Assembly (NCBI RefSeq): GCF_000372465.1
Contig: NZ_AQUZ01000048.1
Coordinates: 1 to 64,000, forward strand
Source: Kribbella catacumbae DSM 19601
Lineage (GTDB): Bacteria > Actinomycetota > Actinomycetes > Propionibacteriales > Kribbellaceae
Direction of reading: 5' to 3'
DNA: 64,000 nucleotides
Part shown: positions 274-437 of the stretch, piece by piece
Position numbering within the stretch: the stretch's first letter is position 1
Layout of the letters: every line of letters begins with the position of its first letter
The notes under the pieces: model-generated
What the model was told of the DNA's origin: nothing
Database searches by the model: none
Seen by the model: only the letters and a program-made list of their open reading frames with translations
Made by a program: the position numbers and the translations under genes

Positions 274-437
274 AGGGCCCTGGGTTGGGCGAGCTTCGAG
301 TGATCACGGTGTCCAGGTGCGTGCATCGGGGTGCTGGGGTGGCGTCCTCGATGCGGAGCATCGTGGATGTTGCCCCAGTGCCGCGAGGTGCGTGCCTGGG
401 CGCCGTGAGCGCCGAAGGGCGCCCAACCCAGGGCCCT
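274..437. repeat. Long imperfect hairpin element, copy 1 of the CGATG-core family
   Basis: The outer 18 bases (274-291) are exactly complementary to 420-437. Inside, the arms keep pairing with mismatches towards a centre at about 355, where CGATG and CATCG flank a five-base loop. The whole fold is about 164 nt and fills the gap between the IS1182 fragment and valS. A second element of the same build and a related core lies at 32503-32668, but its outer stem has a different sequence that also pairs with itself. No coding sequence or T-box features were recognised here, although it lies just ahead of valS. Confidence 0.8.

Follow-up and report, generated by a model that had tools for sequence, protein, structure and literature searches.

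Small hairpin elements dispersed in Kribbella: IS-like ends, a one-strand core fold and near-strict orientation relative to replication

The hairpins at positions 274-437 (copy 1) and 32503-32668 (copy 2) of the stretch of Kribbella catacumbae DSM 19601 DNA analysed here (64,000 nucleotides of contig NZ_AQUZ01000048.1; hereafter, the window) are members of a dispersed family of small mobile DNA elements. The arms of 60 of 97 copies resemble the ends of IS elements, the core folds better on one strand than on the other, and the copies show a near-strict polarity with respect to replication. We consider it likely that the family consists of MITEs that DDE transposases move in trans and whose hairpin core can be inserted, or is tolerated, in just one orientation with respect to replication.

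The window hairpins and their family

An initial annotation had described the two hairpins as having a common turn and unrelated outer stems that nevertheless pair, and both were recovered at the same positions with these properties. Compared with 200 dinucleotide shuffles, folding gave z = -13.5 for copy 1 and z = -14.8 for copy 2. The outer arms are 90% complementary in copy 1 (270-298/413-441) and fully so in copy 2 (Table 1). Their arm sequences are unrelated; what they have in common is the apex TCGATG...CATCGT, which carries a fixed T-T mismatch and from which, energy not being used, the '+' strand of each copy was set.

Table 1. Parts of the two hairpin copies in the window
Feature	Position	Strand	Remark
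CTAG, left target-site side of copy 1	272..275		Empty sites of relatives read CTAG here
Left outer arm (inverted-repeat end) of copy 1	274..298	+	Best IS630 match p=0.035; no individual IS assignment
Conserved core hairpin of copy 1, apex TCGATG/CATCGT at 348-364	297..415	+	Model R1, 111.8 bits
Right outer arm of copy 1	413..437	+	Complementary to left arm (90% over 270-298/413-441)
Left outer arm of copy 2	32503..32526	+	Weak IS5-type resemblance, p=0.055; no IS assignment
Conserved core hairpin of copy 2	32528..32649	+	Model R1, 86.7 bits
Right outer arm of copy 2	32645..32668	+	100% complementary to left arm

A search with BLAST and a covariance model (R1, built from 25 copies) found ~40 places in the 9.6-Mb draft genome that match the family; several of these copies sit at contig ends, where the draft assembly is therefore broken. 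The further copies that the initial annotation had proposed to seek with such a model were found in all 37 Kribbella genomes searched, this one included, at 2 to 62 matches each, some places matching on both strands. Weaker relatives occur in several other actinobacterial families: class-wide, 31 genomes in a sample of 297 gave matches at E<=1e-5; they belong to 9 of 115 genera, one of which, judging from plasmid matches, is probably Streptomyces. The loci read from these genomes follow the same plan, mostly with CTAG-type ends and a variable outer stem, and the core in most of them reads GCATCGCAAGGCG...CAACGC.GCGAGGTGC. Phages gave no match to the family. Two copies 3.4 kb apart on contig C43 were considered as a composite element; this was rejected, the intervening genes all being ordinary.

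The site upstream of valS, where one copy in this genome lies ~60 bp from the gene, is without the element in 28 of the 30 genomes examined, most of them continuous through CTAG (e.g. CCAGTCTAGGAGGGCTGTGG), and is occupied in G000 and G004. The second window locus is occupied in G000 only, and in none of the 29 relatives examined. Since both window sites are empty in relatives, the window copies are insertions, and the earlier suggestion of a non-autonomous mobile element is borne out. Recent copies have CTAG on both sides; at both window sites these flanks have decayed.

Other features of the window were recorded. Positions 1-275 are identical to the stretch beside another hairpin copy, on contig C61 (L017), and bear a minus-strand open frame (...DARALVGHLVPAGSVFGFLAEHRGEVFPAGLFEDLFPS...) that resembles the start of an IS1182-type transposase; from this frame, an IS may adjoin hairpin copies directly. 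A second, different palindromic repeat (ATTCGCCCCCTTTT...AAAAGGGGGCGAAT) occupies 51230-51391, and two inverted units of its motif recur at both L007 779-840 and L013 1400-1460; a 35-nt inverted repeat (7-nt loop, 94% complementary) lies downstream of valS at 3116-3192.

Core fold and origin of the ends

Core and outer stem differ in how they pair. Between 57 and 72 nt from the apex, where the outer stem lies, 97 copies show ~93-100% Watson-Crick pairing, mostly >=95%, with G-T pairs at ~1-2% on average and a widely variable sequence. The core stem of the same copies has G-T pairs in ~80-90% of cases at fixed positions (25, 26, 29, 30 and 38), A-C pairs being near zero on the '+' strand. Because almost all core mismatches are G-T on '+', this strand forms a near-continuous helix, while its complement is left with A-C mismatches; the '+' core is the more stable in 99/99 copies, by a mean of 15 kcal/mol (DNA parameters). 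RNAalifold identified 48 core pairs, 25 of them with two-sided compensatory changes, and the outer arms covary at orthologous sites, as would be expected from the selection on the fold that had been proposed. The fold is thus under constraint; one guess is that it is conserved through helping the two ends to meet for transposition. Replication-linked mutation bias was rejected as the source of the core G-T pairs. The '+' strand is G/T-rich (GC skew +0.14, AT skew -0.19), whereas the weak genome skew predicts a C/A-rich composition for the strand that '+' occupies, so this bias does not explain the one-strand fold.

Arms matching the IS630 TIR of CP108401.1 (p<=0.01, up to 95%) were found in 54 of the 97 copies, and arms matching one IS5 TIR in a further 6; the remaining 37 gave no assignment to an IS630 or IS5 end. 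The common arm CTAGTGYCCYGYGTCSGAAGTT corresponds to the end of the 1139-bp IS630-family element in CP108401.1, whose transposase was confirmed to have a DDE_3 domain. Over 20-22 nt the L151 arm (GACTAGGGCGTGTCTCCCAATT) is identical to the termini of 960-981-bp elements of the IS5 family, which are carried by plasmids of Rhodococcus and Dietzia and whose TIRs adjoin annotated IS5 transposases; in Streptomyces the L327 and L339 arms resemble the ends of other IS630 and IS5 elements. The matching IS630 and IS5 elements have CTAG on both sides, as do recent hairpin copies. IS630 itself is said, after Tenzen and Ohtsubo in 1991, to prefer TA in CTAG. Insertion of IS630-family elements at TA, with duplication of the TA, is documented (PMC2170065). 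Among the PF01609 and PF13546 hits in Kribbella no matching IS was found, the ends being different; Kribbella IS701 and DDE_Tnp_1 elements were discarded as a source of the ends for the same reason.

If outer stems are IS ends, it follows that arms can be unrelated between copies yet perfectly inverted. The earlier view of the stems as changed but still paired stands, while the idea that they are arbitrary paired sequence does not, given the 60 of 97 copies that resemble IS630 or IS5 ends. As the window copies' own arms received no IS assignment (Table 1), the statement about IS ends rests, for these two, on family membership.

Three copies in G012 (L411-L413) have near-identical cores and different IS5-like ends, so that in a single genome the core is the slower of the two to change. 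In three other copies (L153 2338-2385, L159 and L160) the inner hairpin between two GGTGCGTGC direct repeats has been lost and the outer stems kept. Two IS630-family elements on Streptomyces plasmids (L355 and L356), with TAGTGCTGTG ends, carry passenger genes for a GNAT acetyltransferase or a MafI-type immunity protein.

Replication polarity and its possible causes

In the eight Kribbella genomes in which dnaA was located, copies to the left of dnaA lie on '+' and those to its right on '-' in 131 of 134 cases (nominal binomial p ~2e-35, the copies not being fully independent). Provided that forks leave the dnaA region in both directions, the leading-strand template is '+', the strand that folds well. 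Both core/end types, as judged from hit length, obey this polarity, and so do all five near-identical full-length copies of G016, which have unique flanks and CTAG on both sides. Of the three exceptions two are in G027: one copy in the gnd-recF gap, ~3 kb from dnaA, and one at 1.07 Mb, which is 3.3 Mb away from dnaA and may lie past the true terminus. The third is a G028 copy at 5.26 Mb. In that gnd-recF gap, ~2.5 kb from the dnaA-dnaN gap, the copies of G024 (L278 ~5500) and G027 (L279 ~5500) face opposite ways. In G311, probably a Streptomyces, identical copies face both ways, and on the assumption of a central origin 9 of 12 fit; strict polarity is thus shown for Kribbella only.

At ~165-170 nt the element is too short for a transposase gene. 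Most likely, the elements would be cut and pasted in trans by IS630 and IS5 DDE transposases into C-TA-G sites, and the core hairpin would not be tolerated, or would be removed, when its well-folding strand is the exposed lagging-strand template, leaving only one orientation to survive. The polarity calls for some additional cause, which a bias in survival or insertion would supply, since the direction of the core should make no difference to a DDE enzyme working on duplex DNA; a 98% bias from hairpin instability alone is demanding, because the disfavoured strand still folds strongly. More tentatively, and with rather less than even confidence, the core could be a replication-polar module, kept across actinobacteria, whose single-strand fold couples insertion or survival to fork direction and which has acquired its ends from two or more unrelated families of DDE transposons. 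A dispersed element with an orientation that marks fork direction almost perfectly would provide a natural probe of replication effects on hairpin DNA and transposition, and one core with the ends of two unrelated transposon families would show how MITEs can switch transposase dependence. The elements adjoin many genes.

Under replication-coupled insertion, as in IS200/IS605, the element would move or integrate at the fork in folded single-stranded form, with its direction dictated by the chemistry. Such insertion would account for a near-strict polarity that both end types follow, as do the five recent copies that are nearly identical, as well as for a fold conserved for one strand. It has a precedent in IS608 and ISDra2, which insert into the lagging-strand template (PMC6006769). 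We nonetheless think it rather unlikely: in Kribbella the strand that folds well serves as the leading-strand template and not the lagging-strand one, the ends match the repeats of DDE-type IS630 and IS5 elements, and Y1 transposase is absent from G000, G024, G027 and G030, with one partial match in G028.

The confinement of G-T pairs to one strand is also what a transcribed element would predict, its G-U paired RNA serving the cell or the element's own spread, and compensatory changes together with persistence at orthologous sites, with covariation in place, agree with such a structured RNA. In almost every copy, however, the transcript would run head-on into the replication fork. No Rfam family was matched at gathering score, sub-threshold matches being hairpin-shaped and due to chance. 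When 92 copies were classified by gene context, as estimated from codon usage and not from annotation, those between co-directional genes were antisense in 34 cases and sense in 22, the others lying between divergent (19) or convergent (17) genes. This absence of a clear sense or antisense preference speaks against the cis-acting RNA that the initial annotation had offered as an option, and a cis-regulatory UTR element was rejected because of it. On balance a structured RNA seems unlikely.

We give a similarly low probability to intrastrand template switching or arm-to-arm copying, and not selection, as what keeps the arms identical. Occupied sites could be grouped into five orthologous sets, the valS set sharing the right flank only. 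At L010/L078, with flanks 86-89% identical, both arms have changed together (AGCGACGTAGC -> GACGGTGCAGG) with pairing kept, and the tip has been replaced; at L024/L192/L085 the arms covary as well. Such joint changes, and an outer stem nearly without G-T, are what copying from one arm to the other should leave behind. It should, though, have wiped out the G-T wobbles that persist at fixed positions in the core, and G-T intermediates are present in the G024 ortholog (L192); moreover, many arms are accounted for as IS ends, which are necessarily inverted repeats. The orthologous occupied pairs could conceivably be independent insertions at one site.

Ordinary transcription terminators or chance palindromes, for which an intergenic location and a G+C-rich stem might speak, can be set aside with near certainty given a core sequence common to tens of copies in many species, insertion sites empty in relatives, the small share of classified copies that lie between convergent genes (17 of 92), and the polarity to replication.

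Relation to known repeat families

No earlier description of the element was found in Rfam or in the open-access literature searched, which is not proof of novelty. Dispersed copies and sites empty in relatives, with TIRs shared with autonomous IS in the 60 assigned copies, fit the definition of a MITE in most of the respects tested, and MITEs are a kind of element already known. ERIC sequences, which are long imperfect intergenic palindromes, are similar in form and size and belong to unrelated taxa. REP/REPIN sequences with TnpA-REP (RAYT) are likewise many-copy intergenic hairpins with a link to replication; such a system was rejected here because four of the five genomes tested lack a Y1 transposase, and the inverted ends in Kribbella are of DDE type. 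Some hairpin copies end in exactly the TIR, CTAGGGCGTGTCTCCCAATT, of the IS5-family elements of Rhodococcus and Dietzia plasmids (L398-L400), but differ from these elements in having a hairpin core and no transposase gene. RUP and Correia/NEMIS are examples of MITEs derived from IS630 (Tc1/mariner superfamily). Like these, the Kribbella elements are short, without a transposase gene, bounded in many copies by IS630-like TIRs, probably inserted at TA inside CTAG, and present as many dispersed copies with empty sites; unlike them, they have a core that also occurs with IS5-type ends, folds in a strand-specific manner and follows replication with near-strict polarity. What is new is that a single core occurs with two end types and that its orientation follows replication.
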